A DNA stretch of 42,550 bases, from positions 1 to 42,550 of the forward strand of contig JAIOPT010000082.1 in the NCBI GenBank assembly GCA_021413765.1. Reading direction: 5' to 3'. The notes under the pieces were generated by a model that was given only the letters and a program-made list of their open reading frames with translations, was not told where the DNA came from and searched no databases. The position numbers and the translations under genes are program-made. This DNA comes from Betaproteobacteria bacterium. GTDB lineage: Bacteria; Pseudomonadota; Gammaproteobacteria; Burkholderiales; Gallionellaceae. This document shows, in pieces, positions 6,259 through 28,651 of the stretch (positions within the stretch are counted from its first letter, which is position 1; every line of letters begins with the position of its first letter).

Positions 6259-6481
6259 ACTTTCTTCCATCATTTAGATCGCACTTTCATATTTTCAATC
6301 GCATCTTAATATAGTTTCGCGTTCATTTATTTCAAGTTAAAAAATGATCACATTACATAAAAGCGCTCCCATAGGATTTACATTGCCAATCTATGGACTG
6401 CTAGCCGGTCTATTTCTGTATTTACATACAGATGTTACATCTTCTCTAGCAAAGATTAATGCCAAAACTTAGGTTTCTCAT
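6259..6481. other. Intergenic region with a perfect 7-bp hairpin
   Basis: TCTGTAT-TTAC-ATACAGA lies at 6415-6432, between the epimerase stop and the ligase start (both on the minus strand). No T-run follows on the minus strand, so it is a weak terminator at best; it could also be a binding site. The remainder is AT-rich. Confidence 0.35.
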
Positions 6482-7450
6482 CTAATTTTTGTAATACTCC
6501 TGATACCAATCGACAAATCGTTTAATCCCAACTTCCACGCTCGTGGATGGTGAAAATCCAACTGAGGCCTGCAGCGCCTCTATGTCAGCATAGGTAGCCA
6601 CAACATCACCGTCTTGCATAGGCAGAAGCCGCTTTTCAGCGAGTCTACTCAGGGCATCTTCTATCACCTTGATGAAATCAAGCAAATTGACGGATGCATG
6701 ATTGCCAATGTTGAAAACACGATAGGGGGTTGATTTTTCGGTTTTAGCCAAATCAAGAACCCGCACCACCCCTTCAACGATATCATCAATGTAGGTAAAG
6801 TCTCGTCGCATATCGCCATGGTTATACACGTCTATGGGCTTACCTTCACTGATGGCTTTGGTGAATTTGAAATAAGCCATATCCGGCCTGCCCCACGGGC
6901 CGTAAACGGTAAAAAATCGTAACCCGGTGGTCGGCAATCCAAATAAATGACTGTAAGTATGCGCCATCAACTCATTGGCCTTTTTGGTGGCCGCATACAG
7001 GCTCACAGGGGTGTCGACCATATCCTGCTCTGAGTAGGGCAACTTGGTATTACCCCCATAAACACTTGAACTAGAGGCATACACCAAGTGCTCAACATGA
7101 GCGTTACGACAACCTTCCAGTACATTAACAAATCCCGCTAGATTACTTTCTACATAGGCTTGTGGATTTTCCAAGGAATAGCGCACACCTGCTTGCGCAG
7201 CCAGATGCACCACACGTTCAAATCTTTCTTGCGCAAAAAATGCTGATAATGCAGCGTTGTCGGCAATATCCAGCTTGATGAATCTAAACTTTGGATAGCC
7301 TGCCAATTGTGCAAGGCGCGCCATTTTAAGGTTTACATCATAGTAATCGTTGAGATTATCAATCCCAATGACTTCATCACCGCGCTCTAATAGCGCGCGC
7401 GCAGTAAACATGCCGATGAATCCCGCTACGCCAGTGACCAGTATCTTCAT
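6482..7450 (-). CDS. UDP-glucuronate 4-epimerase-like NAD-dependent epimerase
   Basis: Extended short-chain dehydrogenase, 322 residues, predicted to interconvert UDP-glucuronate and UDP-galacturonate in the cytoplasm (CapI/LspL/GAE group). Seen: NAD motif TGVAGFIG near residue 6, [12 protein letters not shown] near 31 (a hallmark of this group), SSSSVYGGN near 125, the catalytic YAATK near 152, and [15 protein letters not shown], strongly typical of UDP-GlcA 4-epimerases. It starts 2 bases after the hpt stop, so it is in the same operon. No UDP-glucose dehydrogenase is in the window; its substrate must come from elsewhere, using UDP-glucose from GalU. Specificity is assigned from motifs only. 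Confidence 0.85.
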
Positions 7451-7452
7451 GA

Positions 7453-8019
7453 TTACTTCAGCGCGTAAATAGCAGGGAGATTACGCCAGCGGCCACGCAC
7501 ATCCATGCCGCAGCCAAACACATAGCGGTCAGGCACTATCAGACCCACAAAATCAGCTTTTATCGGTTTAGGTCTACCAGTAGTTTTTTCGGTGAGTACG
7601 GCAATCATTACTCGCGCAGCTCCAGATTCTAGGCATTTATCGCGCACTGCAGCCAGGGTAATTCCCTCATCCAGAATATCATCCACTAACAGCACGGTAC
7701 GCCCACGCACATTGTCGCTAGGGGGTACACGCCAGTGGATGTCATGACCTTGAATCTGATTGCGGTAGCGCGAGGCTTGTACATAGTCGAAATCCAGTGG
7801 AAAAAGTAATTTTGGTAGCAACCAACCAGAAAAGACCACCGCCCCGCCCATCACACTCAGCACCAGTGGGTCTGTCTCATTCAAAACAGAACTAATGTTC
7901 TGTGCCATTTTTTCAACGACAGCATTGACCTCCACTTCGGTAAAAATCATCTCTGCATCGTCTAGCAGCTGGTGCGCCTCTGCAGCAGAAGTCACTTCTT
8001 CTCTCGCACATTCAACCAT
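7453..8019 (-). CDS. hpt: Hypoxanthine-guanine phosphoribosyltransferase
   Basis: Purine salvage enzyme converting hypoxanthine or guanine plus PRPP to IMP or GMP. 188 residues. The PRPP-binding motif [17 protein letters not shown] lies near residue 110, the flexible loop region VQASRYRN near 81, and a C-terminal [20 protein letters not shown] segment with the base-contacting aromatic residue. It overlaps the end of galU by 28 bases. A GTG at 7995, which overlaps the galU stop, is an alternative start. A housekeeping purine gene inside a polysaccharide operon is unusual. Confidence 0.9.
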
Positions 8020-8867
8020 TGCGTGAATTCAGTGCTGATTTCTGGATGGCGCAGCGCGTATTCGACGTTCGCCTGCATATAACCCAGCTTGCTCCCACAA
8101 TCATAGCGCTTACCGTGATACTCATATGCAAGGATGACTTCTTCAGCCATCAATGCCGCAATGCCGTCAGTGAGCTGAATTTCGCCACCTTTGCCAGGCT
8201 GCACATTTTCTAAGCAACTAAAAATATGCGGAGTCAGAATATAGCGCCCGACGACCGCAATATTGGAAGGTGCCAATGCAGGGTCTGGCTTCTCAACGAT
8301 GCTGTCAATCTGCATCAACCCAGGCTCTAATTCGTGAGCATCCACGATGCCGTAATGACTAGTTTCGCTAGGTGCTACTGCTTCCGTGGCAATTACAGAT
8401 GCCCGATGCTCTTGAAAGACTGCTACCATCTGTGTCAAAGCACCTGGTTTTGCATCTATCAAGTCATCAGCCAGAATCACTGCAAACGGCTCATCCTTGA
8501 CTATCGATTTAGCACACAGCACAGCATGCCCCAAACCCAGCGCCTCAGCCTGACGTATATAGATGCAAGTAACATTTTTTGGCAACATGTTACGCAGCAA
8601 CTCCAACATAAGCGTTTTGCCACGGGCTTCCAACTCGGTTTCAAGCTCATACGCCTTGTCAAAATGATCTTCTATCGCTCGCTTACTGCGTCCAGTGACG
8701 AAAATCATCTCGGTAATGCCCGCCTCAACAGCTTCTTCTACAGCATATTGGATCAGGGGTTTATCAACGATGGGGAGCATCTCTTTAGGGCTTGCCTTGG
8801 TAGCAGGTAAGAAACGCGTGCCTAAACCCGCGACAGGAAAGACTGCTTTCGTGATTGGCTGTGTCAT
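7992..8867 (-). CDS. galU: UTP-glucose-1-phosphate uridylyltransferase
   Basis: Makes UDP-glucose from UTP and glucose-1-phosphate, feeding UDP-sugar synthesis. 291 residues, normal length. The nucleotide-binding start FPVAGLGTRFLPATKASPKE (residues 10-29) and VDKPLIQYAVEEA are diagnostic; FAVILADDLID near 130 and IVEKPDP near 190 complete the family pattern. The start ATG overlaps the TAA stop of the upstream dehydratase by one base (TAATG), so the two are translationally coupled. GalU here supplies the UDP-glucose from which the UDP-glucuronate substrate of the downstream epimerase is made. Confidence 0.95.
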   Translation of the reverse strand: MTQPITKAVFPVAGLGTRFLPATKASPKEMLPIVDKPLIQYAVEEAVEAGITEMIFVTGRSKRAIEDHFDKAYELETELEARGKTLMLELLRNMLPKNVTCIYIRQAEALGLGHAVLCAKSIVKDEPFAVILADDLIDAKPGALTQMVAVFQEHRASVIATEAVAPSETSHYGIVDAHELEPGLMQIDSIVEKPDPALAPSNIAVVGRYILTPHIFSCLENVQPGKGGEIQLTDGIAALMAEEVILAYEYHGKRYDCGSKLGYMQANVEYALRHPEISTEFTQWLNVREKK

Positions 8868-10750
8868 TAGTGGATACTGGTGGTAGATGGCGCCATAGGC
8901 AGGGCTAAAACCACTGTTGGGGAAGTAGAATGGATGTCACCTGTGTAATCTTCAACCCAAAACTTCAAGTCGCTCTTGATGTCAGATTCATCTTGCTCTG
9001 TCACAGAATTTAACCATTTCAGCAGCTTCCCTACCCAACGTGCATCAACCTCTCGCGCCTTGGAGATACGCAGCTTGGCATGCGGTGTAGGCAAGGTATG
9101 TTCGTTATCGGCCAACAATTCCTCATATAGTTTTTCACCTGGGCGCAAGCCGGTAAACACGATATCAATCTGTCCGTCTGGCAAACCTGAAAGTCGTATC
9201 ATCTCTCTTGCAAGTTCCGCAATGTTGACAGGCTCACCCATATCCATCACAAATATCTCGCCCCCCTGCCCCATGAGCGATGCCTGCATCACTAACTGTG
9301 CGGCTTCAGGAATAGACATAAAGTAGCGCGTAACTTCGGGATGGGTCACCGTCAACGGCCCACCCTTGGCAATCTGCTCACGAAATTTTGGAATTACGCT
9401 GCCACTACTGCCTAGAACGTTACCAAATCGCACTATGACAAAACGTGTTCCATCGGCCTCCTGTAATCCTTGACATACCATCTCTGCCAGTCGCTTGCTT
9501 GCACCCATTACATTAGTCGGATTTACTGCTTTATCAGTGGAAATAAGAATAAATTTTTCAACATTGTGAACTTTGCAAGAAGTTGCCAGAACATGAGTGC
9601 CGATGATGTTGTTATGTAATGCTTCGCTGACATTACTATTTTCCATCAGCGGCACATGCTTGTATGCCGCCGCATGAAACACTACGAATGGCTGATAGAG
9701 CTTCAACACTGTGTCCACTCGCTTTGCATTCTTCACATCTCCTACTACAGATACAATCTTAGTACTAAGAAAAAGTTGAGAAAACTCTTGCTCCAAAGCA
9801 TATAAAGCATATTCATTAAGCTCAAATAACACTAATAGTTTTGGCTTATAGCGGGCGATTTGACGACAAAGCTCACTACCGATAGATCCCCCTGCACCGG
9901 TAACCATCACCACCATTCCATCCAATAAACTATGCAACCCTAAGTCATCCAAAGTTACAGGTTCACGACCCAACAAATCTTCCACTTCTATTGGTCGCAC
10001 CTGTGAAACGCTAACTTTGCCACTCATCAGATCTTCAAAAGATGGAACTGTCAGCACTGTCAAGTTCGCTTGATTTGCAATATTAGCTGCACGATGGCGT
10101 GTTTCATGGCTGGCCGATGGCATCGCCACAATTACGTGTGTAACCCCCATTGCTGAAGCATGTAAGGAAAGGCTACTGATTTCTCCATACACCTGCACCC
10201 CATAGAGATGTACTCCATGCAATTCCGGATTGTCATCAAGAAAGCCAATTACGCGCCATTCATGGCTGCGTATCAGACTTTTGAGCAAAGCAACTGCTGT
10301 ATCTCCAGCACCTAAAACAATAACTGGCTCGCCTAGTATCTGCGTTAACCCATAGAGGCGATGCTCTTTCCAAGCACGATATAGAAACCGGCTTCCGCCC
10401 ATCATTAAAACTAACAAAAGCGGGTTCAATATTAAAACAGATCTCGGAACTTCAAATCTCAGCATCAATTCCAATAGCGAGATTATCAATGTGATCAAAC
10501 CAACCGAAATCAAAATACGCCTAAGATCAGGGATACTTGCGAACCGCCATATACCCTTATAGAGCCCAAAAAAAATGAATATTATTGAATTAACTACAAT
10601 CACACCTAAAACTGTTTGCATGAGTACTTTAAAAGAATCAGGTGGCACATCAAAGTTAAATCGTAAGTAAAATGCAAGCGCCCAAGCGACACCCGACATC
10701 ACAATATCGTGCGTCAAAGCCAAAGCCATGCGTTTATTAGTAACTATCAT
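8867..10750 (-). CDS. Membrane-anchored nucleotide-sugar 4,6-dehydratase (WbpM/CapD/PglF type)
   Basis: Converts UDP-GlcNAc to its 4-keto-6-deoxy derivative, the first step to QuiNAc, FucNAc or bacillosamine-type sugars. 627 residues. Four or so membrane spans occupy residues 1-130; a CoA-binding-like Rossmann domain with VIVLGAGDTAVALLKSL follows near 145; the catalytic Rossmann domain starts at TGAGGSIGSELCRQI near 288. Near 415 is STDKAVNPTNVMGASKRLAE, with Met in place of the usual catalytic Tyr before Lys, as known for the long WbpM/PglF enzymes. It is the first gene of the minus-strand operon. The product sugar probably is the one transferred by the PglC-like enzyme at 37393. Confidence 0.9.
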   Translation of the reverse strand: MIVTNKRMALALTHDIVMSGVAWALAFYLRFNFDVPPDSFKVLMQTVLGVIVVNSIIFIFFGLYKGIWRFASIPDLRRILISVGLITLIISLLELMLRFEVPRSVLILNPLLLVLMMGGSRFLYRAWKEHRLYGLTQILGEPVIVLGAGDTAVALLKSLIRSHEWRVIGFLDDNPELHGVHLYGVQVYGEISSLSLHASAMGVTHVIVAMPSASHETRHRAANIANQANLTVLTVPSFEDLMSGKVSVSQVRPIEVEDLLGREPVTLDDLGLHSLLDGMVVMVTGAGGSIGSELCRQIARYKPKLLVLFELNEYALYALEQEFSQLFLSTKIVSVVGDVKNAKRVDTVLKLYQPFVVFHAAAYKHVPLMENSNVSEALHNNIIGTHVLATSCKVHNVEKFILISTDKAVNPTNVMGASKRLAEMVCQGLQEADGTRFVIVRFGNVLGSSGSVIPKFREQIAKGGPLTVTHPEVTRYFMSIPEAAQLVMQASLMGQGGEIFVMDMGEPVNIAELAREMIRLSGLPDGQIDIVFTGLRPGEKLYEELLADNEHTLPTPHAKLRISKAREVDARWVGKLLKWLNSVTEQDESDIKSDLKFWVEDYTGDIHSTSPTVVLALPMAPSTTSIH

Positions 10751-11155
10751 TTGTTCAGAATATCAAGAATTTTAAATCATCACCTTAAAGAGGCAGAAGT
10801 TTATCAGGTGAACATAGTAAAGATAGTATAAAACCATTTGGCACTTCGGATTACTTAAATCATTAGCTTAGTCATAATGCGTATTTATGAACTTTGCCAA
10901 GCTCCTAAACCACTTCAAAATGCTAAGGAGTTCAAACAAAAATAGAACTTAGTCTATGATAGAATGCACATCACGCAAGCGGCATTTTTTCTGGGCTTCA
11001 TGTGGGTTTGGCTTCATTATATGAGCCGTTCGTTCAACTTTAAGCAACAGGAAAGATTTGCATCATCGGGGACTGATAACTTCTGAATTTGAGCGAATTA
11101 GTTTAAATCATGAAGTTACTACGCACCTCCCATTTTCAATTTTGAAAGATTTTAA
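10751..11155. promoter_or_regulatory. Divergent intergenic region between the two polysaccharide operons
   Basis: About 405 AT-rich bases separate the divergent operons, so both main promoters should lie here. On the minus strand TATACT near 10831 is a candidate -10 box. On the plus strand TATGAT (10955-10960) is another, with a poor -35. I see no JUMPStart/ops element. A 40-codon frame (10964-11086) lies within. Confidence 0.4.
10964..11086 (+). CDS. Possible 40-residue single-span peptide in the divergent region
   Basis: ATG-to-TGA frame of 40 residues. It has one hydrophobic, aromatic stretch (QAAFFLGFMWVWLHYM) followed by a polar, basic tail. No ribosome site is visible; a -10-like TATGAT/TAGAAT sits immediately before the ATG, so expression would need a leaderless message or an upstream start. 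I do not recognise it. It may be a chance frame in a 5' leader. Confidence 0.2.
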   Translation: MHITQAAFFLGFMWVWLHYMSRSFNFKQQERFASSGTDNF

Positions 11156-12187
11156 ATGTTTAGGCGTGAAGATATTGGCGATGAACCTTTTGTCATCGCT
11201 GAAGTAGGTCAAAATCATCAAGGCGATCTTGATATCGCACGTGAATATATCCGTGTATTCGCATTCGAAGGTGCAGATGCAGTAAAATTTCAAACACGCA
11301 ACAATAAATACTTATTCTCACAAGATGCTTATGAAGCACCTTACACAAGTGAAAATGCCTTTGCTGAAACTTATGGCGCACATCGCGAGAAGCTTGAACT
11401 CAAACCTGAGTGGTTACAGATACTAAAGGAAGACTGTGTCAAACACGGGGTAAAGTTCATGTCGACACCATTCGACGAGCCTAGCCTTGATCTGCTGCAA
11501 AAAATAGATGTCGATATTCTGAAAATCGCTTCCTTCGACTTGGGAAATCTTCCGTTTATTCATCGCATTGCGAGCTTAGGTAAGCCGGTAGTAATGAGCA
11601 TCGGGGGCGGAAAATACGATCAGATTCGTTCTAGTGTGGAGGTATTACTCAGCCATCATGATGAAGTGGCGATTCTGCATTGTGTTTCCGAATACCCTTG
11701 CGAATACAACAGGCTTGGGTTGAATCACATTGAGACACTGATCAAGGAATTCCCCAATTGCACAATTGGCTCGTCTGACCATTTCAATGGCACCTTGTCA
11801 GGGCCGGTTGCTTACATTAAGGGGGCGAGAGTTTTTGAAAAGCATGTATCCCTTAATCGGGCATGGAAAGGCACTGACCATAGCTTTGCCTTGGGGGCGG
11901 AAGCGTTTAGACGATTTGTTCGTGATATCAAACGTGTCCGCCACATGTTGCCGCCAAAACCTGCTGACGATTTAGGTAACGAGCATGTATTCAGGAAGCT
12001 CGGAAAATCTCTGGTTGCACTCATCGATATCCAGGTGGGTGACAAGATCACGCTGGAGAATTTGTCCGGACGAATTTTCAGCGCGCAATATGTACCTGTA
12101 CGTGAGTCAAATAAGGTCATTGGTCGGGTTGCAAAGAGAAATATCGCCCAGGGCGAGCCAATAATACCTTCAGACCTGGAAGACTAA
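11156..12187 (+). CDS. neuB: NeuB-family ulosonate synthase (PEP-condensing)
   Basis: Condenses phosphoenolpyruvate with an aldose to a 2-keto-3-deoxy sugar acid. 343 residues, the usual length. A TIM barrel starts with FVIAEVGQNHQGDL (Glu16 and the metal-ligand region), then AVKFQT near 43, FMSTPFDEPS near 100, and SSDHFNG near 200 with the metal-binding His. A C-terminal antifreeze-like SAF domain (about 285-343) contains SGRIF...VPVRE...AKRNIAQGE, with an Arg where family members contact the sugar. No NeuC epimerase or legionaminic/pseudaminic genes are in the window, while a KdsC-like phosphatase follows. This fits a KDN-type route from a hexose phosphate better than N-acetylneuraminate, but that is inference. 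First gene of the plus-strand operon. Confidence 0.88.
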   Translation: MFRREDIGDEPFVIAEVGQNHQGDLDIAREYIRVFAFEGADAVKFQTRNNKYLFSQDAYEAPYTSENAFAETYGAHREKLELKPEWLQILKEDCVKHGVKFMSTPFDEPSLDLLQKIDVDILKIASFDLGNLPFIHRIASLGKPVVMSIGGGKYDQIRSSVEVLLSHHDEVAILHCVSEYPCEYNRLGLNHIETLIKEFPNCTIGSSDHFNGTLSGPVAYIKGARVFEKHVSLNRAWKGTDHSFALGAEAFRRFVRDIKRVRHMLPPKPADDLGNEHVFRKLGKSLVALIDIQVGDKITLENLSGRIFSAQYVPVRESNKVIGRVAKRNIAQGEPIIPSDLED

Positions 12188-12206
12188 TTGCCACCGAAAG
12201 TAATCA

Positions 12207-12716
12207 ATGATCAGCAATGAATTACTTGCTTCAGTTCAATTGGTCGCTTTCGACTTCGACGGAGTATTTACCGACAACACGGTATATGTGACGCAGGACG
12301 GGATCGAATCCGTGAGATGCTGGCGTAGTGATGGCCTTGGACTCTCCAGGTTGCACAGTATTGGGGTAAAAACTTTCATCATCTCAACTGAAGTGAATCA
12401 GGTTGTCACTGCCCGGGCCAACAAATTGAAGATGGCCTGCAAACAAGGGGTTGATGACAAAGCCGCCGTGATTCTGGAAACTTGTCGAGAACTGGGAATA
12501 GCGCCAGAACAAACCATGTTTGTCGGCAATGATATCAACGATATTGCAGCGTTCAAATCGATTGGATTTCCTGTCGCTGTTGCAGATGCTTATCCTGAGG
12601 TTAATCCACATGTTCTTTATAGGACTGAGAAACCAGGCGGTTTTGGCGCGGTACGTGAGGTATGCGACTTGATTTATCATGCTAAGAACGGCAATCTAAC
12701 AGGCACTAAGCAATGA
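12207..12716 (+). CDS. KdsC-like HAD phosphatase (ulosonate-phosphate phosphatase)
   Basis: Small cap-less C0 HAD phosphatase, 169 residues, same size as KDO-8-phosphate and KDN-9-phosphate phosphatases. Motif I FDFDGVFTDN gives the nucleophile Asp16 and Asp18; motif II is FIISTE near 58; the Lys of GVDDKAAVI is near 82; motif III is VGNDINDIAAF near 110. The C-terminal GGFGAVREVCDLI matches the GGxGAxRE tail of KdsC proteins that reaches into the active site of the tetramer. Directly downstream of NeuB, it most likely removes phosphate from the synthase product. ATG at 12207 has GAAAG six bases upstream. Confidence 0.85.
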   Translation: MISNELLASVQLVAFDFDGVFTDNTVYVTQDGIESVRCWRSDGLGLSRLHSIGVKTFIISTEVNQVVTARANKLKMACKQGVDDKAAVILETCRELGIAPEQTMFVGNDINDIAAFKSIGFPVAVADAYPEVNPHVLYRTEKPGGFGAVREVCDLIYHAKNGNLTGTKQ

Positions 12717-13525
12717 CCAAAGATATTCTTTTTGATGTCAGCCGTGAGATCGTCCTGATCACCGGGGCTTCCGGCCAATTGGGCAACGAGTACGCTAGCG
12801 CTTTTGTTGAAAGAGGTGCAAAAGTGATTGGCTTGGACATTCGCCCATCGCCTAAAAGTGAAGCACTCTCAGCACAATATCCTGAGAATTATCTGTTTCT
12901 GGCTGCGGACGTCACTGCCAAGACCTCACTGCAACAAGCATTGGACGCAATTGTCAGCAAGACAGGCATACCCACGGTTCTGATCAATAACGCAGCCATT
13001 GATTCGCCACCTTCGGCTCCTCCAGAAGAGAATGGTCCTTTCGAGGACTATCCCGAAGCATCCTGGGATAAGGTAATCAATGTAAATCTCAAGGGCGTTT
13101 ATCTATGTTGCCAAGTCTTCGGTGGAGCAATGGCGAAAGCCGGTAAGGGCTCGATCATCAACGTCGCCTCGATTTATGGTGTGGTGTCTCCGGACCAAAG
13201 CCTCTACGAATATCGTCGCAAGCGTGGTGAAGTCTTCTTTAAGCCAGTAGCTTATTCGGCATCCAAGTCCGGCATCTTGAATATGACTCGTTATTTGGCG
13301 GTATATTGGGCTAAGCAAGGCGTGCGTGTGAACTCGCTAACCATCGCTGGTGTTTTCAATAACCAGGAACAGGCTTTTCTTGATGCCTATTGCGGGCGTG
13401 TGCCTGCGGGGCGCATGGCGAATTCCAATGAATATAACGGTTCAGTACTCTTCCTGGCGAGTGAAGCATCGCGTTATATGAATGGCGCCAATCTGATTGT
13501 TGACGGCGGTTGGACAGCGATTTGA
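12713..13525 (+). CDS. Short-chain dehydrogenase/reductase
   Basis: Classical SDR, 270 residues, NAD(P)-dependent oxidoreductase. Cofactor motif TGASGQLGNEYA near residue 18, LINNAA near 90, NVNLKGVYLC near 123, catalytic Ser in NVASIYGVVSP, and YSASKSG carrying Tyr and Lys near 180. Terminal LIVDGGWTAI is typical. Residues 147-170 hold a charged insertion (YEYRRKRGEVFFKP) before the catalytic Tyr, probably shaping the substrate pocket. It overlaps the phosphatase by ATGA, so they are co-translated. The substrate is unknown; context suggests a sugar acid or its precursor, or partnership with the following aldehyde dehydrogenase. Confidence 0.85.
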   Translation: MTKDILFDVSREIVLITGASGQLGNEYASAFVERGAKVIGLDIRPSPKSEALSAQYPENYLFLAADVTAKTSLQQALDAIVSKTGIPTVLINNAAIDSPPSAPPEENGPFEDYPEASWDKVINVNLKGVYLCCQVFGGAMAKAGKGSIINVASIYGVVSPDQSLYEYRRKRGEVFFKPVAYSASKSGILNMTRYLAVYWAKQGVRVNSLTIAGVFNNQEQAFLDAYCGRVPAGRMANSNEYNGSVLFLASEASRYMNGANLIVDGGWTAI

Positions 13526-13527
13526 CC

Positions 13528-14991
13528 ATGGTGAATGTTGCCCGAATTCCGAACTGGATCAACGGCCAGAACTCCCTTCCAGAGAGCAATGCCTGGCTGG
13601 ACAAATTCAATCCCCATTCAGGTGAATTACTTTGTCACGCCGCAGATTCATCAGCGGCAGATGCCAAGCTCGCTATTGTTGCCGCAAGTAACGCCTTTCC
13701 CGGCTGGTCAGAACTCACGCCAGTAAAACGTGGGCAAATCCTATTTGATATAGTCAATCTGATGAAACAGCGTTCTGGTGAATTGGCCGAATGTATTGCA
13801 GTCGAAACTGGAAAACCGCCACAAGATGCCAAAGGTGAAGTCGGCGGAGCTATTCTCCAGGCAGAATACTTCGCCAGCGAAGGTATGCGGCTTTATGGCC
13901 GTTCATTATCATCTGGCACTCCTGGCAAGTACAGTCACACAATCAGACAGCCTCGTGGTGTGGCTGGACTGATCGTTCCAGCCAACACCCCTATTGCAAA
14001 CATTGCCTGGAAAACCTTCCCTGCACTCATCTGTGGCAATTCAGTTGTGATGAAAGCATCCGAGGACTCCCCGCGTATTGCTTATATTTTTGCCCAACTG
14101 ACCAAGGACGCAGGTTTGCCTGATGGCGTATTCAATGTCATACAAGGCCGCGGGCAGCCTGCAGGCGCTGCACTGGTTGAAGACCCTCAAGTAACTGTCA
14201 TCAGCTTCACTGGTTCAACCGGTGTGGGTCGTTGGATTGCCGAAGTTGGAGGACGTCGCCTAGCCCGCGTTTCCCTAGAACTGGGCGGCAAAAACCCTTT
14301 TGTTGTTTGCGATGATGCTGATCTTGATCAGGCAGTCCATTGGGCAATACTGTCGGCCTTCAGCAATGCCGGTCAGCGTTGTGCGGCTGGAAGCCGGATA
14401 TTGGTTTTCAAGGAAATTTACGAAGAATTTCGTGACTTGTTCGTTACCAAGGCTAAAAGCTTGAAGCTGGGGGTCGACGCAGTTTGCGATCTTGGACCGG
14501 TAATTAACAAGCGCCAGCAGCAAAACATCATCGCCGCTATTGAAAAATCTAAGACCGAAGGCGGCCGTGTGCTATGCGGCGGCACTGCACCATCCGATCC
14601 CAAACTGGCTAAAGGCTATTACGTCCAACCAACAATCATTGAAGGGTTGCAACCCTCGGCCGCACTCAGTTGCGAAGAGGTCTTCGGTCCTGTGGTTACT
14701 CTGCATCCAGTCGACAATCTGGCAGATGCTTTGCGCTTGGCAAACTCTACGGAATATGGCCTTACGGCGGCGATACATACCCGCAATGTTGATCGCGCAA
14801 TGTGGTTCGCACAAAGGGTAAAAGCCGGTGTCGCGAACATTAACCTTGGCACTTTCGGTAGTGAGCCACACATGCCTTTCGGCGGATTTGGCGCATCTGG
14901 CAATGGCACTCGCGAACCGGGTATAGAGGCACTCGATGTCTATTCCGAACTTAAAAATATTTCATTTTTCACCCGCTCAAACATGATTTGA
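13528..14991 (+). CDS. NAD(P)-dependent aldehyde dehydrogenase
   Basis: Oxidises an aldehyde to a carboxylate. 487 residues, normal for the ALDH superfamily. FTGSTGVGRWIA near 230 binds the cofactor, Glu251 in LELGGKNPF and the catalytic Cys285 in SNAGQRCAAGSR are both present, and the C-terminal PFGGFGASGNGTREPG is conserved. The sequence style is nearest succinate-semialdehyde or glycolaldehyde/lactaldehyde dehydrogenases. A TTG at 13510, inside the SDR gene, could extend it by six codons; ATG 13528, two bases after the SDR stop, is preferred. ALDH genes are rare in O-antigen loci, and its role with the SDR and transketolase is unknown. Confidence 0.88.
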   Translation: MVNVARIPNWINGQNSLPESNAWLDKFNPHSGELLCHAADSSAADAKLAIVAASNAFPGWSELTPVKRGQILFDIVNLMKQRSGELAECIAVETGKPPQDAKGEVGGAILQAEYFASEGMRLYGRSLSSGTPGKYSHTIRQPRGVAGLIVPANTPIANIAWKTFPALICGNSVVMKASEDSPRIAYIFAQLTKDAGLPDGVFNVIQGRGQPAGAALVEDPQVTVISFTGSTGVGRWIAEVGGRRLARVSLELGGKNPFVVCDDADLDQAVHWAILSAFSNAGQRCAAGSRILVFKEIYEEFRDLFVTKAKSLKLGVDAVCDLGPVINKRQQQNIIAAIEKSKTEGGRVLCGGTAPSDPKLAKGYYVQPTIIEGLQPSAALSCEEVFGPVVTLHPVDNLADALRLANSTEYGLTAAIHTRNVDRAMWFAQRVKAGVANINLGTFGSEPHMPFGGFGASGNGTREPGIEALDVYSELKNISFFTRSNMI

Positions 14992-15047
14992 AGTGGGTAT
15001 AAGGTTATAATTTATAAACGTTAGCACTTGATTTATTGGGAGAAATT

Positions 15048-16982
15048 TTGGGAGACCAAATTGGAGTAGCCGTCAGTGGCACTTTGTATTACGTATCGTT
15101 GAAGGAATTTGAGCGCATCCGTGCTTTGCCCGTTTCTTCTATCGATAAAACAGCACTATTCGCGGCACTGTGTCGAATAAATACCCTTTACATGATTGCA
15201 TGTGCCGGCTCTGGCCACATTGGCAGCAGCTTCAGCAGTATGGATGTCATGTCGTGGATACAGTTGAATGAAATCGGAGCCTCATCGAAGGGCGCCGCAG
15301 CATCCAGCCTCTTCTTCTCCTCAAAAGGACACGACGCTCCAGGCTATTACAGTACTCTGATTGGTCTTGGCAAACTGGATTTTGACCTGATTCACAAACT
15401 AAGACGTCTTGGCGGGCTACCGGGTCATCCCGATGTTTCCACCCCGAATGTTGTCACCAATACCGGCTCGCTTGGGATGGGGATTTCTAAAGCCAAGGGA
15501 ATGATCTTTGCCAATCGCTTACTCAAACGCCCCTGTCCTGTTTACGTGCTAACTGGCGATGGCGAATTGCAGGAAGGCCAGTTTTGGGAATCCTTGATCT
15601 CTGCTGCAAACGGTAAGTTGCACGAACTCACAGTCATCATCGATCACAACAAACTCCAGTCAGACACTTTGGTTTCAAAGGTTAGCGATTTGGGCGATCT
15701 GGAAAGCAAGCTGGCTGCTTTCGGCTGGCATGTCAGCCGTTGCGATGGCAACAATCTTGAAACGTTCTCACAGACGCTTGCAGTTACAAAAACCATCAGC
15801 AATAAACCCAAGGTCATTATTGCCGACACTATCAAAGGTAAAGGCGTGTCCTTCATGGAACACACCGCCATTGATTCAGATGTGGAACTCTATAAGTTCC
15901 ACAGTGGCGCTCCTAATGAAGAGACTTATTCCAAAGCCGTTCAGGAATTGATTGATGCCGCGAATGAGCGACTGAAAATGGCGAAGTCTGATTTGCTGAT
16001 GCTCGAAACCGTCACTCGACCCTCACCTCTCCTGCCGAAGGACCCGCAACGCCTGATACCGGCTTATTCAGATGCCCTCCTGGCGCAAGCGCGAAAAAAT
16101 TCAAAGATTGTTGCATTGGATGCGGATCTCATCCTTGATACCGGGCTGATTCCATTTCAGAAAGAATTTCCGGAACGCTTTGTTGAGTGTGGGATCGCAG
16201 AACAGGACATGGTCTCTCAAGCTGGAGGTATGGCCTTGCAAGGACTACTGCCAATTGTCCATTCGTTTGCCTGTTTTCTGTCTGCAAGACCAAACGAACA
16301 GATTTTCAACAATGCATCGGAACGCACCAAGTGTATCTATGTGGGTTCCCTCGCAGGCGTGCTGCCTTCCGGCCCCGGCCATTCACATCAGATGGTCAGG
16401 GATATTTCGGCTCTGGGAGGAGTAACCGGACTGACTATGGTCGAACCTTCATGCGTTGAAGAAGTGACAAGGGTTCTTGACTATGCGGTTAACAGCAATC
16501 CATTAAGTACGTATATTCGTCTGGTTTCAATTCCATATGAAGTACCATTTGAACTGCCGGATGTATACCAGCTGGCGGAAGGACGAGGAGTTGCATTGAC
16601 AGAAGGTAAAGATGCGATTCTGTTTTCCTACGGGCCAATTATGCTTTCAGAAGCCTTTAAAGCAGCCATGAAATTAAAACAGGATCATGATTTTGGTCTT
16701 AAAGTGGTTAATCTGCCCTGGCTCAACAAAATTGATTCTTCGTGGCTAATTTCTGAGGTCGGCGATATCAGCAAGGTCTATACGCTTGACAATCATTTTC
16801 TCAAGGGTGGGCAAGGAGAAATGATCGGCAATGCAATTGCTGAGCAGGGTGCCTCAAAAATTACATTATTCAAACGTCTAGGAATCGAAGATATCCCTGC
16901 CTGTGGCGGAAACCTCGAAGTGCTGGATTTTCACGGCCTTGACTCAAGAGATATTGTGAATTGTGTATTAGGGAATATGTAA
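15048..16982 (+). CDS. Transketolase-like, thiamine-diphosphate-dependent
   Basis: Transfers a two-carbon ketol unit between sugars. 644 residues with both halves fused, near the 660 of ordinary transketolases. Seen: CAGSGHIGSS near 45, SKGHDAPGYYS, the TPP/metal motif TGDGELQEGQFWES near 168, DHNKLQSD, KGKGVSFME, and in the pyrimidine domain VECGIAEQDM with the catalytic Glu near 385, plus GPGHSHQMVRD near 450. TTG at 15048 is favoured by GGGAGA 4 bases upstream; TTG at 15036 is an alternative. It sits between the aldehyde dehydrogenase and a methyltransferase gene, with an overlapping downstream start, so it is an operon member and probably works on a polysaccharide precursor, not central metabolism. 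Confidence 0.88.
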   Translation: MGDQIGVAVSGTLYYVSLKEFERIRALPVSSIDKTALFAALCRINTLYMIACAGSGHIGSSFSSMDVMSWIQLNEIGASSKGAAASSLFFSSKGHDAPGYYSTLIGLGKLDFDLIHKLRRLGGLPGHPDVSTPNVVTNTGSLGMGISKAKGMIFANRLLKRPCPVYVLTGDGELQEGQFWESLISAANGKLHELTVIIDHNKLQSDTLVSKVSDLGDLESKLAAFGWHVSRCDGNNLETFSQTLAVTKTISNKPKVIIADTIKGKGVSFMEHTAIDSDVELYKFHSGAPNEETYSKAVQELIDAANERLKMAKSDLLMLETVTRPSPLLPKDPQRLIPAYSDALLAQARKNSKIVALDADLILDTGLIPFQKEFPERFVECGIAEQDMVSQAGGMALQGLLPIVHSFACFLSARPNEQIFNNASERTKCIYVGSLAGVLPSGPGHSHQMVRDISALGGVTGLTMVEPSCVEEVTRVLDYAVNSNPLSTYIRLVSIPYEVPFELPDVYQLAEGRGVALTEGKDAILFSYGPIMLSEAFKAAMKLKQDHDFGLKVVNLPWLNKIDSSWLISEVGDISKVYTLDNHFLKGGQGEMIGNAIAEQGASKITLFKRLGIEDIPACGGNLEVLDFHGLDSRDIVNCVLGNM

Positions 16983-17783: not shown

Positions 17784-18551
17784 ATGAAAGCCATTATTCT
17801 TGCAGGGGGTCTAGGAACCCGCATTAGCGAGGAATCCCACCTGAAACCAAAACCTATGATCGAAATCGGTGGCAAGCCGATTCTTTGGCACATCATGAAG
17901 ATTTATTCTCATTACGGGATCAATGACTTTGTTATTTGCCTGGGCTACAGGGGCTACATCGTCAAGGAATATTTTGCTAATTACTTTCTGCACACATCGG
18001 ACGTCACATTAGATATGGCCCAGAACCACATGGAAGTGCACGAGCGCCATGCTGAACCTTGGCGAGTAACGCTTGTGGATACAGGGCAAGATACCCTGAC
18101 TGGCGGCCGCCTGAAAAAAGTTCGCGACTATATTGGTAATGAAACTTTTTGTTTCACCTATGGCGATGGGGTTGCTGACCTCGATATAGGCGCAACGCTT
18201 GAATTTCATCGCGCGCATGGAAAAAAAGCTACCATTACAGCAATCCAGCCGCCGGGACGTTATGGGGCTTTAAATCTGGACGGGAATACGGTACTCAGCT
18301 TTCAGGAAAAACCGGCGGGTGACGGTGCATGGATCAACGGTGGGTTCTTTGTACTCGAACCATCGGTGTTCGACTACATACAAGGTGATCAAACCAGCTG
18401 GGAAGCTCAACCATTGGAGCAATTGGCACACGAAGGAGAGTTATTGTCCTATCAGCACCAAGGGTTCTGGCAAGCGATGGATACGCTACGGGATAAAAAT
18501 CACCTGGAAGATTTGTGGAATATCAACCCACCCTGGAAAGTATGGGGTTAA
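17784..18551 (+). CDS. rfbF: Glucose-1-phosphate cytidylyltransferase
   Basis: Makes CDP-glucose from CTP and glucose-1-phosphate, the entry to CDP-6-deoxyhexoses. 255 residues, the family length. The start KAIILAGGLGTRISEES with KPKPMIEIGGKPILWHIMK (residues 2-38) is diagnostic for RfbF, as are CLGYRGYIVKEYF near 55 and VHERHAEPWRVTLVDTG near 90. It begins 4 bases after the methyltransferase stop and overlaps rfbG, so it belongs to the same transcript. It opens the CDP-sugar module of this operon. Confidence 0.96.
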   Translation: MKAIILAGGLGTRISEESHLKPKPMIEIGGKPILWHIMKIYSHYGINDFVICLGYRGYIVKEYFANYFLHTSDVTLDMAQNHMEVHERHAEPWRVTLVDTGQDTLTGGRLKKVRDYIGNETFCFTYGDGVADLDIGATLEFHRAHGKKATITAIQPPGRYGALNLDGNTVLSFQEKPAGDGAWINGGFFVLEPSVFDYIQGDQTSWEAQPLEQLAHEGELLSYQHQGFWQAMDTLRDKNHLEDLWNINPPWKVWG

Positions 18552-19621
18552 ATTTGTTTGGCGGACAATATCGTGGCAAGCGTGTTCTACTGACCGGGCA
18601 CACTGGTTTTAAAGGAAGCTGGTTGGCACTATGGCTTAGCGAGCTTGGTGCGCTGGTATCAGGCGTTGCCCTGGAACCAAACACTGACCCAAATCACTGG
18701 AACTTGCTTAATCTGGATATTCCTGATCAGCGTCTGGATATTCGTGACTATTCTGCATTGTCACGTGTGGTCAGGGATTTCCAGCCAGAAATCGTCTTCC
18801 ACCTTGCCGCGCAACCCTTGGTGCGCCAATCCTATCGCGACCCACTGGAAACCTGGTCCACAAATGTAATGGGTACCGCCAATCTATTGGAGGCATGCCG
18901 TAATACGGCAAGCATACGAGCCATCGTGGTGGTGACTACCGACAAGTGTTATGAAAACAAGGAATGGGAACGAGGATACAACGAGACCGACCGGCTCGGC
19001 GGACACGACCCTTATAGCGCATCAAAAGCAGCCACAGAGCTGGTTGCGGCCAGTTATCGAAGCGCATTCTTTCACGAAAACAAAACTCTGCTTGCCACCG
19101 CGCGCGCTGGCAATGTCATCGGTGGTGGCGATTGGTCCGAAGACCGGTTGATCCCTGACCTGGTACGTTCGATCACTAATGGCAACCCACTGGAAATTCG
19201 TTCCCCGCAAGCCACCCGCCCCTGGCAACATGTTTTGGAATCCCTGAGCGGATACCTGTTGCTTGGCCAGAAGCTTCTAGAAGCACGTAAGGAATTTGCA
19301 GAAGCATGGAACTTTGGCCCTGAACCAGAAGATAACCGTACTGTCGTTGACGTGCTGGCAAAAATGAAAGCCTATTGGCCGGAACTCGCCTGGGTTTTGA
19401 CTGAACGCCCACAGCCGCACGAAGCTGGCCTACTCTATCTTGATAGCAGCAAGGCATACGGGCAACTTGGTTGGATACCCACATGGTCACTGGATGATGC
19501 GCTCAACGCTACCGCCGCATGGTATCGAGCCTACCTGTCTGAAGGTCTTATCGAGAGCCGCACACAGCTGACAGCCTTCATTGCGCAAGCCCAATCCTAC
19601 AAAAGGGCGTGGGCAAAATGA
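18542..19621 (+). CDS. rfbG: CDP-glucose 4,6-dehydratase
   Basis: Converts CDP-glucose to CDP-4-keto-6-deoxyglucose. 359 residues, the usual size. NAD motif LLTGHTGFKGSWLALWL (residues 16-32), HLAAQPLVRQSY near 84, VVTTDKCYEN near 125, catalytic DPYSASKAATE near 155, and RAGNVIGGGDWSEDRLIPD near 180 are all characteristic. The ATG at 18542 overlaps the rfbF end by 10 bases; an upstream start at 18515 would overlap by 37 and lacks homology support. No RfbH-type 3-dehydratase is present, so the product is not heading for a 3,6-dideoxyhexose. Confidence 0.95.
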   Translation: MGLNLFGGQYRGKRVLLTGHTGFKGSWLALWLSELGALVSGVALEPNTDPNHWNLLNLDIPDQRLDIRDYSALSRVVRDFQPEIVFHLAAQPLVRQSYRDPLETWSTNVMGTANLLEACRNTASIRAIVVVTTDKCYENKEWERGYNETDRLGGHDPYSASKAATELVAASYRSAFFHENKTLLATARAGNVIGGGDWSEDRLIPDLVRSITNGNPLEIRSPQATRPWQHVLESLSGYLLLGQKLLEARKEFAEAWNFGPEPEDNRTVVDVLAKMKAYWPELAWVLTERPQPHEAGLLYLDSSKAYGQLGWIPTWSLDDALNATAAWYRAYLSEGLIESRTQLTAFIAQAQSYKRAWAK

Positions 19622-20169
19622 AACTAATGCCAACCGCACTACAGGGAGTTATGGTTGTTGAAACATCTTATGTCTCTGACGAGCGTGGCGCATTCGCCCG
19701 TTACTATTGCGAACATGAACTGGCGTCTATCATCGATGAGCGCCGTATTGTACAAATCAATCATTCCCGCACGACCCATATCGGGGCGGTACGCGGTATG
19801 CATTTCCAGCGCCCGCCACACTCGGAAATAAAGCTGGTGCGTTGTCTCAAAGGTCGGGTATGGGATGTGGCGGTCGATCTGCGTAGCGGGTCATCCACTT
19901 TCCTGCAATGGCATGCAGAAGAACTTTCCCCTGACAATGCACGCATGCTCATCATACCCGAGGGCTGCGCCCATGGCTTTCAGGTGCTGGAGCATGACAG
20001 CGAACTTTTGTACCTGCATACGGCTTTCTACACGCCCGCTTCGGAAGGCGGGGTCTCTTGTAGCGACCCTCGTTTGGGTATCACGTGGCCTCTCCCGATC
20101 GCTGACCTTTCACCACGTGACTCCAGCCATCCTCCAATAACAGTTGATTTTCCCGGAATTACCGTATGA
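19618..20169 (+). CDS. dTDP-4-dehydrorhamnose 3,5-epimerase family protein (probable CDP-4-keto-sugar epimerase)
   Basis: RmlC-like cupin, 183 residues. The catalytic His of AVRGMHFQRPP is near residue 60, KLVRCLKGRVWDVAVDLR follows, then IPEGCAHGFQVLEHDSELLYL near 115 and the terminal DPRLGITWPLP. These are the active-site motifs of RmlC enzymes. Next to rfbF and rfbG it probably acts on CDP-4-keto-6-deoxyglucose at C3 and/or C5 rather than on dTDP-sugar; no rmlA, rmlB or rmlD is present. The ATG at 19618 overlaps the rfbG stop (ATGA). Whether one or both carbons are inverted cannot be read from the sequence. Confidence 0.88.
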   Translation: MKLMPTALQGVMVVETSYVSDERGAFARYYCEHELASIIDERRIVQINHSRTTHIGAVRGMHFQRPPHSEIKLVRCLKGRVWDVAVDLRSGSSTFLQWHAEELSPDNARMLIIPEGCAHGFQVLEHDSELLYLHTAFYTPASEGGVSCSDPRLGITWPLPIADLSPRDSSHPPITVDFPGITV

Positions 20170-21389
20170 TCTGCCGCCACTGCCACACTTCTCTTGAGCA
20201 TGTTTTCCTGGATCTAGGTTTCGCTCCGCCCTCAAATGCCTACCTGGGCAGCGAAGACCTAAAAAACCCAGAGCGCTACTACCCGCTGAAGCTTTATGTA
20301 TGCGAGCACTGCTGGCTGGTGCAGACTGAAGACTACGCACAGGCCGACGAGTTATTCAGCCATGATTATGCCTACTTCTCCTCGGTATCTCAAAGCTGGT
20401 TGAACCATGCAGCTGGCTACGCGCGCATGATTAGCTCACGCCTGAATCTGGGCAAAGACAGTCTGGTCATAGAAGTGGCATCCAATGATGGCTACCTGCT
20501 CAAGAACTTTGTTGAGGCAGGTATTCCCTGCCTGGGAATAGAGCCTACTGCCAGCACTGCCACGGCTGCAGAGAGCCTGGGCATACCTGTGCGACGTGAG
20601 TTCTTTGGCGCTTCATTGGCAACGCGCTTGTTAAGCGAAGGTATGCAAGCAGACCTCATCGCGGGCAACAACGTATATGCCCATGTGCCGGATATCAATG
20701 ATTTTACTGCCGGACTCAAAACCGCACTCAAGCCCGGCGGTACAATCACGCTAGAATTTCCCCACCTCATGCAGTTGATCGAACATATCCAGTTTGACAC
20801 CGTGTATCACGAGCATTTTTCCTACCTCTCCCTCCATACGGTAAATCGTATATTCGCCGCTAGCGGGCTGAGAGTATTTGATGTAGAACAAATTCCCACG
20901 CATGGCGGTAGTCTTCGCATCTACGGCTGCCATGCTGACGATGCCCAGCAAACTTCAGATGCGGTGAAAAATCTGTTGCAAGAAGAGGGCCAGCAAGGCT
21001 TGCGTCAGCTTGCGGTCTATCGGAATTTCCAGCCACGCGCAGATCGGGTAAAAAACGACCTCGCTGTTTTTTTGATCGAACAACAACGTGCCGGTAAGTC
21101 TGTTGCGGCTTACGGCGCAGCGGCAAAGGGTAACACTCTGTTAAACTACGCCGGAATCAAGCCGGATTTACTGCCTTATGTTTGTGATGCGGCGCCATCC
21201 AAACAAGGTAAATTTATGCCCGGAACACACATTCCTATTCTGCCTCCTTCGGTGATTCGTGAACGCAAACCCGATGTGGTTCTTATCCTGCCGTGGAACA
21301 TCGCAGAAGAGGTAGTAGCTCAGCAAGCTTGCGTACGGGAATGGGGCGGAAAATTTATTGTGGCTGTGCCTGAGTTGAAAATCATCTGA
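20166..21389 (+). CDS. Sugar-nucleotide C-methyltransferase (TylCIII/NovU/TcaB9 type)
   Basis: 407 residues, SAM-dependent C3-methylation of a 4-keto-6-deoxy sugar nucleotide. Three parts: a zinc-binding N-terminus (CRHCHTSLEHVFLDLG and CEHCWLVQ), a Rossmann methyltransferase with VIEVASNDGYLLKNF near 100 and NNVYAHVPDINDF near 165, and a C-terminal nucleotide-binding domain with AYGAAAKGNTLLNYAGI near 315. The catalytic loop YHEHFSYLSL near 218 keeps the Glu-His-Tyr pattern used by TcaB9-like enzymes. The start overlaps the epimerase stop (ATGA). Its partner substrate is most likely CDP-4-keto-6-deoxyglucose or its epimer. Confidence 0.9.
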   Translation: MICRHCHTSLEHVFLDLGFAPPSNAYLGSEDLKNPERYYPLKLYVCEHCWLVQTEDYAQADELFSHDYAYFSSVSQSWLNHAAGYARMISSRLNLGKDSLVIEVASNDGYLLKNFVEAGIPCLGIEPTASTATAAESLGIPVRREFFGASLATRLLSEGMQADLIAGNNVYAHVPDINDFTAGLKTALKPGGTITLEFPHLMQLIEHIQFDTVYHEHFSYLSLHTVNRIFAASGLRVFDVEQIPTHGGSLRIYGCHADDAQQTSDAVKNLLQEEGQQGLRQLAVYRNFQPRADRVKNDLAVFLIEQQRAGKSVAAYGAAAKGNTLLNYAGIKPDLLPYVCDAAPSKQGKFMPGTHIPILPPSVIRERKPDVVLILPWNIAEEVVAQQACVREWGGKFIVAVPELKII

Positions 21390-21398
21390 GATTCTTAA

Positions 21399-22511
21399 AT
21401 GTCCCGTATCCATTACACAAAGCCCTCCATCACCCAACTGGAAATCGATTATGCAACCGATGCTGCCATAAACGGCTGGGGTGAACGTTGCTATGAGTAC
21501 ATCGGGCGCTTCGAACAATTGTTCCGCGAGCACCTTGGGGTCAAGCATGCTATCGCTACATCCAGCTGTACAGGTGCCCTGCATATGGGTCTTGCAGCAT
21601 TGGATGTTGGTCCAGGTGACGAAGTTATTGTAGCAGATACCAACTGGATCGCCTCGGCAGCACCAATAACCTATCTGGGGGCGACTCCGATTTTTGTGGA
21701 CGTCTTGCCGGACACCTGGTGTATAGATCCAGAGCAGGTAGAAAAAGCCATTACTGCACGCACCAAAGCCATCATCGCAGTTCACATCTATGGCAACCTT
21801 TGTGACATGGACTCTCTGATGAACATAGGCAAGCGCCACGGTATTCCGGTTATCGAAGACGCGGCGGAGGCCATTGGTTCAGTCTGGCATGGCAAGCGGG
21901 CGGGGTCCATCGGCGAGTTCGGTACATTCTCTTTCCACGGTACCAAAACCATCACCACTGGTGAAGGTGGTATGTTCGTCACTAACGACGACAATTTATA
22001 TGAAAAAGTCCTCACCCTTTCCAATCATGGAAGGGCTCGTGGCCAGACTCGTCAATTCTGGCCCGACATGGTCGGGTTCAAATACAAAATTTCCAACATC
22101 CAGGCGGCTATTGGTTGTGCCCAAATGGAGAGGATTGGAGAATTGATCGCCCGGAAAAGAGAGGTGTTCGAACACTATGCTGAGCGCCTCCGCAAGATAC
22201 CGGGATTGAGCTTGAACCCCCAAAAAGCAGGAACGGTAAATGGTTACTGGATGCCAACGGTAGTATTTGAGAAAGAATCCGGAATCACCAGAGAGTTCCT
22301 TCAAAAAATATTCCGTGAAGCAGATATTGATGCCCGGGTTTTCTTTTGGCCTCTGAGTACCCTACCACCCTTCTCAACATCAACTACCAGCAATCCAGTT
22401 GCAAAGAGTCTTTGCGAACGGGCCATCAATCTCCCGTCGTACCACGACATGACAAAAAATGAGCAGGATATGGTGTTGGCCGTTCTAGCGAACGCGATGC
22501 AGGGGAAATAG
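21399..22511 (+). CDS. DegT/DnrJ/EryC1 sugar aminotransferase
   Basis: PLP-dependent aminotransferase, 370 residues. TSSCTGALHMGL near 50, GDEVIVADTNWIASA near 73, VIEDAAEAIGS near 153 (PLP ring Asp), and the lysine of SFHGTKTITTGEGG near residue 183 that carries PLP; NYKISN-like motif VGFKYKISNIQAAIG near 227. The pattern resembles perosamine synthases, which aminate the C4 ketone of 4-keto-6-deoxy sugar nucleotides. It is not the RfbH dehydratase variant because the PLP Lys is present. Placed after the C-methyltransferase, it could install the 4-amino group of a C-methylated CDP-sugar. Confidence 0.9.
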   Translation: MSRIHYTKPSITQLEIDYATDAAINGWGERCYEYIGRFEQLFREHLGVKHAIATSSCTGALHMGLAALDVGPGDEVIVADTNWIASAAPITYLGATPIFVDVLPDTWCIDPEQVEKAITARTKAIIAVHIYGNLCDMDSLMNIGKRHGIPVIEDAAEAIGSVWHGKRAGSIGEFGTFSFHGTKTITTGEGGMFVTNDDNLYEKVLTLSNHGRARGQTRQFWPDMVGFKYKISNIQAAIGCAQMERIGELIARKREVFEHYAERLRKIPGLSLNPQKAGTVNGYWMPTVVFEKESGITREFLQKIFREADIDARVFFWPLSTLPPFSTSTTSNPVAKSLCERAINLPSYHDMTKNEQDMVLAVLANAMQGK

Positions 22512-22515
22512 AACC

Positions 22516-28635: not shown

Positions 28636-28651
28636 CCAAAGAAACACTCAA

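Follow-up and report, generated by a model that had tools for sequence, protein, structure and literature searches.

A widely conserved NeuB gene cassette with a dedicated transketolase-like enzyme, predicted to encode a CMP-ulosonate pathway

Which sugar is made where a NeuB-family synthase is encoded next to an aldehyde dehydrogenase and a transketolase? The question is raised by five genes in contig JAIOPT010000082.1 of a Gallionellaceae bacterium (assembly GCA_021413765.1), of which the 42,550 nucleotides analysed here are called the window. The five open reading frames (ORFs) are intact and lie head to tail on the + strand. They encode a NeuB-family phosphoenolpyruvate (PEP)-dependent ulosonate synthase of the subfamily that we call the cassette subfamily (11156-12187; PF03102 with 223 bits, plus PF08666, the SAF domain), a KdsC-like HAD phosphatase (12207-12716; HAD hydrolase Pfam match), an NAD-type short-chain dehydrogenase (SDR; 12713-13525; PF13561), an NAD-type aldehyde dehydrogenase (ALDH; 13510-14991; PF00171 with 508 bits) and a transketolase-like (TKT) thiamine diphosphate (ThDP) enzyme with three domains (15036-16982; PF00456, PF02779 and PF02780), all Pfam assignments being above cut-off. 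An earlier note on this DNA had proposed that the five genes form a new ulosonic-acid pathway, an interpretation that our analysis supports in part. We are highly confident that they belong to a conserved pathway to an ulosonate activated with cytidine monophosphate (CMP). This pathway is apparently undescribed and employs a TKT-like enzyme in a function for which such enzymes are not known. From the gene set, its co-inheritance, the loss of an arginine in NeuB and the residue changes in TKT we conclude that the pathway, which seems to serve a surface polysaccharide, leads to a CMP-activated 3-deoxy-ulosonic acid that is probably non-amino, and that it includes NAD-type oxidation and two-carbon ketol chemistry.

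Most of the genes had been described as overlapping or lying within 20 bases of each other. This holds for the first four, with a gap of 19 bases between NeuB and HAD, an overlap of 4 bases between HAD and SDR and an overlap of 16 bases between SDR and ALDH (or a gap of 2 bases if ALDH begins not at its TTG start codon but at an in-frame ATG 18 bases downstream), but the gap between ALDH and TKT is 44 bases. The arrangement is not due to chance: it recurs in many phyla, and in both genome samples examined the NeuB and TKT subfamilies are always found together. When named genomes were scanned with the TKT alignment, 397 relatives were obtained, 80 of which were analysed together with the window (81 loci). 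The cassette, in the order NeuB, phosphatase, SDR, ALDH, CMP-sugar synthetase (NeuA) and TKT, was found in many phyla, the 80 relatives, among them Methylomonas koyamae (L078), belonging by record title to Pseudomonadota, Acidobacteria, Chloroflexi, Bacteroidetes, Nitrospirae and Gemmatimonadetes, as well as to Planctomycetota, Verrucomicrobia, spirochaetes, cyanobacteria and others. The idea of a distinct ulosonic-acid route is borne out.

Clustering of the ORFs in the 81 loci placed TKT in 81, NeuA in 68, ALDH in 59, NeuB in 55 (including L104 and L133, whose NeuBs fall outside the cassette subfamily), SDR in 51 and the KdsC-type HAD in 35; 33 loci encode a glycosyltransferase that is about 570 aa long and matches PF05159 marginally. 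The clustering undercounts: tblastn searches of the 80 loci revealed any NeuB in 56, SDR in 57, ALDH in 60 and NeuA in 73, and found NeuB in L087 and L109, where the ORF clusters had none. The exact unbroken order NeuB-HAD-SDR-ALDH-NeuA-TKT is present in 18 of the 81 loci and NeuA lies immediately upstream of TKT in 57; subfamily NeuB, SDR, ALDH and NeuA all accompany TKT in 34 of the 53 loci (window counted) whose flanks reach 9 kb or more in each direction. In eight loci, by title from Moorena and Acidobacteria, the KdsC type is absent and TKT is followed by a different HAD phosphatase. No dehydratase, aminotransferase, acetyltransferase or UDP-GlcNAc epimerase is found among the six core clusters, and a DegT cluster occurs in only 18 of the 81 loci.

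Three single loci deserve a comment. An apparent fusion of TKT with a TPR protein in L040 was rejected, as its 1163-aa frame differs from the frame of the TKT match, and the wrong-frame row was left out of the TKT alignment. L112, labelled as a Bifidobacterium breve metagenome-assembled genome (MAG), has NeuB, SDR, ALDH, NeuA and TKT in a row; probably the label is wrong or the contig is a contaminant. On a plasmid of Streptomyces sp. NBC_01237 (L150, 16162-19893), NeuB, SDR and TKT are adjacent, with no cassette ALDH in the stretch and no NeuA on the plasmid, possibly a minimal form of the cassette.

The co-occurrence of NeuB and TKT was studied in 274 genomes of the class and 398 genomes of the phylum, the own genome being in both samples. 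Matches to the window NeuB were obtained in 82 of the 274 class genomes, five of which (own included) exceeded 240 bits, the next best reaching 157, and the TKT query identified exactly the same five genomes and no other. The same was true of the phylum, where the TKT subfamily is present in 5 of 398 genomes, two of them from one genus, and the NeuB subfamily in exactly those five, with none discordant (Fisher p 4e-9 for the class and 1e-9 for the phylum, own genome excluded, uncorrected for kinship). In the 18-20 kb around the NeuB genes of the four class relatives we found SDR, ALDH, NeuA and TKT, the last being truncated by a contig end in one of them, and a phosphatase near NeuB in three of the four. 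The earlier note would have abandoned its proposal if SDR, ALDH and TKT did not accompany NeuB in other genomes; the neighbourhood search revealed that they do.

Some cassettes are split. Twenty-eight loci lack a clustered subfamily NeuB, and when 11 genomes of these were searched, nine had such a NeuB elsewhere in the genome. About 200 kb separate NeuB from TKT in G286, one of the five positive phylum genomes. Of seven distant NeuB regions, six also carry a cassette-type HAD, SDR or ALDH, and that in G286 has none. For comparison, 31 sequence cuts around 27 canonical NeuB places (mostly with 1.5 kb flanks) contained no cassette-kind TKT or ALDH, and one SDR and one HAD of that kind. The locus L027 shows a canonical NeuB (134 bits) beside a cassette-kind SDR (43%, 222 bits); the short cut contains neither TKT nor ALDH, and the locus is perhaps a related pathway.

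The catalytic residues had been described as kept in all five enzymes, and so they are, but the substrate-phosphate contacts of TKT are gone. The cassette NeuB has the NeuB fold, the SAF domain and the PEP and metal residues, and the window protein does not reach the equivalog cut-offs for NeuNAc synthase and PseI (TIGR03569, 243 bits against 399.65). After four of the 57 NeuB-cluster proteins with fewer than 150 bits were dropped, the equivalents of E25, K53, Q55, T110, K129, Y186, S213, H215, E234, H236 and D247, mapped from pairwise alignments with the Neisseria meningitidis NeuB, were found in 53 of 53 cassette NeuBs. A passage in PMC6795526 describes Arg314, in the SAF domain of the meningococcal enzyme, as positioning the N-acetyl group of N-acetylmannosamine (ManNAc). 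This arginine is replaced in all 53 cassette NeuBs (Ser in 28, Ile in 22, Val in 2 and Ala in 1; Ile307 in the window); of 13 canonical rows, 11 have Arg and two show a gap at this place. In a quick tree with long canonical branches, the 53 cassette proteins separate from 10 canonical ones with an SH-aLRT of 95, three of the 13 canonical rows having been dropped beforehand. The loss of this N-acetyl contact makes it likely, as the earlier note had expected, that the acceptor carries no 2-acetamido group.

The TKT-like enzyme has the three domains, the ThDP-binding features and the catalytic His, Asp, Asn and Glu residues of transketolase (EC 2.2.1.1), and its nearest sequence in the PDB is human transketolase. 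H61, H99, H131, H289, H451 and E389 are conserved in 81 of 81 sequences, H131 being the counterpart of E. coli H100, which touches the C1 hydroxyl of the donor. The sugar-phosphate contacts of E. coli transketolase, R358, S385, H461 and R520, are not preserved: all 81 sequences have Asp in place of S385 and Leu in place of H461, 78 of 81 have Ser in place of R520, and R358 is replaced by Ile, Val, Phe, Leu or Gln. The residues that stand in for S385, H461 and R520 are D368, L439 and S498. The positions of S385, H261 and R358 were assigned by motif, since the alignment with E. coli TktA misplaced them. The loss of these contacts argues against an ordinary sugar-phosphate substrate and, together with the co-occurrence with NeuB, led us to reject a housekeeping transketolase; the window protein also remains below the NCBIfam transketolase cut-off (344 against 488 bits). 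Taken together, the conservation and the enzyme features strongly support a CMP-ulosonate pathway that has an unusual acceptor and includes a two-carbon ketol step on substrates lacking the usual phosphate. A good AlphaFold2 model of the window TKT (pLDDT 84.5) matches transketolases by E-value and DXS by TM-score. The monomer model has a TM-score of about 0.75 to DXS chains and 0.45 (root-mean-square deviation 21) to transketolase chains, which suggests either that its domains are arranged as in DXS or that modelling of a domain-swapped dimer produced an artefact.

The remaining enzymes are well conserved in their active sites, ALDH and HAD rows outside the length limits having been dropped. 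SDR keeps Ser-Tyr-Lys in 52 of 52 rows and an acidic, NAD-type position 42 (49 Asp and 3 Glu), and its matches include gluconate 5-dehydrogenase and KduD models, enzymes that oxidise penultimate hydroxyls of sugar acids. ALDH keeps Cys, Glu, Asn, Lys and the NAD-type Glu185 in 48 of 48 rows; its best NCBIfam models, far below cut-off, are alpha-ketoglutaric semialdehyde and 2,5-dioxovalerate dehydrogenase, which oxidise the terminal aldehyde of a 2-keto acid. The catalytic residues of HAD are present in 34 of 34 rows, with KdsC and KDN-9-phosphate phosphatase models giving 94-112 bits, all below cut-off (94.2 bits against 180 for the KDN-9-phosphate phosphatase model NF058599; KDN, 3-deoxy-D-glycero-D-galacto-non-2-ulosonic acid). 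For a structural model of the L054 glycosyltransferase (pLDDT 83), the KpsC transferases of 3-deoxy-D-manno-oct-2-ulosonic acid (Kdo) gave the top target TM-scores, 0.48-0.54, among the 50 matches listed.

From the observed gene set, co-inheritance and residue changes we infer an order for SDR, TKT and ALDH. NeuB would condense PEP with a hydroxy-aldose phosphate, yielding a C9 acid if this is a hexose 6-phosphate, and the HAD enzyme would take the phosphate off. The NAD-type SDR would then oxidise the penultimate hydroxyl, turning the chain end into a ketol (HOCH2-CO-) that the TKT-like enzyme would remove as a two-carbon unit, and ALDH would convert the resulting terminal aldehyde to a carboxylate. 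This would yield a 3-deoxy-2-ulosaric acid (a C7 acid in case the NeuB product is C9), which the CMP-synthetase would activate and a KpsC-like GT-B enzyme would transfer. We propose this order, with an SDR ketone, ketol removal by TKT and oxidation by ALDH to a 3-deoxy-ulosaric acid, tentatively, and a shade more tentatively the general statement that a widespread pathway may build a longer ulosonate with NeuB, cut its two-carbon end with a dedicated TKT and oxidise the new end, giving 3-deoxy-ulosaric (dicarboxylic) sugars. Ketol removal employs each enzyme once, and it agrees with the NAD-type residues and with the best, if weak, model matches of ALDH (aldehydes of 2-keto acids) and SDR (penultimate hydroxyls).

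Several points weigh against ketol removal. We know of no acceptor for the removed ketol, and a tetrose phosphate would be a cheaper route to a C7 acid. SDR matches 205 families, and the model scores of SDR and ALDH are far below cut-off. Two of the 11 TKT genomes searched (G660 and G667) lack the NeuB subfamily, and a cassette-type ALDH (at least 45% identity) was not found in four of 11 searched genomes, all drafts (G668, G669, G670 and G673), whose loci have SDR, NeuA and TKT, three of them also NeuB. An Arg or Lys lies at most two residues from the R358 position in 72 of 81 TKTs, so this contact may only be shifted. The first matches of the L054 glycosyltransferase model by E-value are UDP-GlcNAc 2-epimerases and not KpsC, and only 2 of 247 genomes from the family to which Rhizobium leguminosarum Tri-43 belongs have the TKT.

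The same enzymes could also lengthen the sugar: SDR would place a ketone on the ulosonic acid and TKT would add a hydroxyacetyl group to it, giving a branched-chain ulosonic acid, and ALDH would remove the aldehyde left by the ketol donor or trim the branch. The lost phosphate contacts fit a bulky acceptor, and the absence of ALDH from some loci and genomes fits a secondary role. However, ALDH would then have no necessary role, and the usual donor, a phosphorylated ketose, would require the very contacts that are lost. Such an addition on an oxidoreductase-made keto-sugar has been proposed for the miharamycin and amipurimycin transketolases (PMC12247030), a precedent that is itself a proposal. 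We regard ketol addition as the main rival, only slightly less probable than ketol removal. Less probable is the version of the earlier note, in which SDR, ALDH and TKT would first prepare an unusual aldose phosphate as the acceptor for NeuB, from which NeuB would then make the ulosonate. The missing N-acetyl contact and the frequent phosphatase speak for it, since they point to an aldose phosphate, plain or unusual, as the probable acceptor; yet a TKT acting on sugar phosphates should have kept its contacts, whereas none of the 81 sequences retains the S385 and H461 residues, and TKT makes ketoses from aldoses and would have to run towards the aldose. We rank a TKT step after NeuB as likelier than remodelling of the acceptor.

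A KDN pathway of NeuB, phosphatase and CMP-synthetase that merely lies beside unrelated or housekeeping SDR, ALDH and TKT genes seems to us very improbable. NeuB and a KdsC-like phosphatase do match the known KDN logic, and a PF00456 search revealed no canonical transketolase in the own draft genome (86% complete). On the other hand, the gene set is conserved over many phyla with exceptionless co-occurrence of NeuB and TKT, TKT is without the ordinary phosphate contacts, and the canonical NeuB places show no such TKT or ALDH. The probability that remains beside ketol removal and these alternatives goes mostly to enzyme orders that we have not thought of.

Comparison with known systems places the cassette apart from each of them. 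The KDN pathway consists of KDN-9-phosphate synthase, a phosphatase and CMP-KDN synthetase, and is not known to need SDR, ALDH or TKT. The cassette shares with it a NeuB-family synthase, a KdsC-like phosphatase, a CMP-synthetase and the lack of acetamido sugar enzymes, but adds SDR, ALDH and TKT, and its phosphatase is under the KDN-9-phosphate model cut-off. The Kdo pathway uses KdsA, KdsC, KdsB and a KpsC-type transferase; the KdsC-like phosphatase, the KdsB/PseF-like synthetase and the glycosyltransferase of the relatives, near KpsC in fold, resemble it, whereas the cassette synthase is NeuB with SAF and not KdsA, and three redox and ketol enzymes are extra. A NeuB-family synthase and a CMP-synthetase are likewise shared with the N-acetylneuraminic (Neu5Ac), legionaminic and pseudaminic acid pathways, from which the cassette differs by a core without dehydratase, aminotransferase, acetyltransferase or epimerase and by the absence of Arg314. 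In PMC12247030, an oxidoreductase and a transketolase are proposed to act on a keto-sugar in the miharamycin and amipurimycin pathways, and YerE (yersiniose) is presented as a ThDP carboligation enzyme of a surface-polysaccharide pathway. The former are split-gene enzymes of Streptomyces secondary metabolism, whereas the cassette TKT is a single chain in polysaccharide loci with NeuB and ALDH, and YerE belongs to the decarboxylase superfamily and uses a CDP-ketohexose.

No description of a transketolase in a NeuB or ulosonic-acid pathway was found in full-text searches of open-licence papers; in the text of PMC12342839 available to the search, both search words occur in unrelated places. Our data place TKT in a CMP-ulosonate pathway with no precedent in the literature searched, predict that the surface polysaccharides of many phyla contain an acidic sugar not yet recognised, and offer a short list of six enzymes for locating it. 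Either mechanism would be new: ketol removal, if true, would open up the unsolved origin of ulosaric acids, and ketol addition, if true, would be the polysaccharide counterpart of a reaction so far merely proposed for Streptomyces antibiotics. Heptulosaric acid reportedly occurs in Rhizobiaceae lipopolysaccharide (the title of Russa et al. 1991, cited in PMC5713287). We do not claim a link to it, as TKT is absent from 245 of the 247 genomes of the Tri-43 family and therefore does not explain that acid. Nor do we equate the product with 3-deoxy-D-lyxo-hept-2-ulosaric acid (Dha), since the C4 stereochemistry of the NeuB family seemingly does not fit the D-lyxo form. The biosynthetic enzymes of D-Dha are listed as unknown in PMC12168206.

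The gene list of the earlier note was correct for its five genes but incomplete, as the gene run containing them continues on the + strand to 34480 and includes a cytidylyltransferase, an aldolase and a PF05159 protein. The run also encodes glucose-1-phosphate cytidylyltransferase, CDP-glucose dehydratase, an RmlC-like epimerase, two C-methyltransferase-like proteins, a DegT aminotransferase, a flippase, glycosyltransferases and an acyltransferase. A Sideroxyarcus MAG (L054) has a NeuB-HAD-SDR-ALDH block with 81-85% identity and a TKT with 71% identity to those of the window, but the window is without the usual NeuA between ALDH and TKT, and the own draft genome shows no NeuA of the usual cassette type, the best match being 31-40% identical. 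The CMP-sugar synthetase of the CTP_transf_3 type, as in CMP-ulosonate pathways, is represented by the gene at 24463-25191 (+ strand; PF02348, 74 bits), a candidate activating enzyme that is PseF/KdsB-like with scores below the model cut-off. This displaced NeuA, followed directly by a DHDPS/NanA-family aldolase (25193-26092, + strand; PF00701), is the candidate replacement for the usual cassette NeuA; relatives 56-73% identical to it occur in L058, L072, L082 and L132. The pair of cytidylyltransferase and aldolase is also present in L072 and L132. The aldolase possibly provides a second, aldolase-based route to a ulosonic acid, and its role in the cassette pathway is uncertain. The PF05159 protein (28628-30097, + strand; 38 bits) is a candidate ulosonate transferase. 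Its identification with the conserved cassette glycosyltransferase was rejected, the match being weak (47 columns, 26% probability).

Elsewhere in the own genome (G000), contig C74 carries at 4129-12072 (L045) another two NeuB genes together with a DegT aminotransferase and a NeuA, arranged as in ordinary nonulosonate pathways, and contig C109 has a weaker PF03102 match. Besides the window gene, PF00456 matched only two frames, one of 869 aa that is presumably an E1 protein and one of 630 aa that is presumably DXS. A CDP-glucose block (RfbF, RfbG, RmlC-like, C-methyltransferase-like and DegT) occupies window positions 17784-23583, and the same block adjoins the cassette in L058, L060 and, without DegT, L082. 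The NeuBs of these three loci form another subclade than the window NeuB, and since the CDP-glucose block stands beside different NeuB subclades, the modules seem to be recombined.

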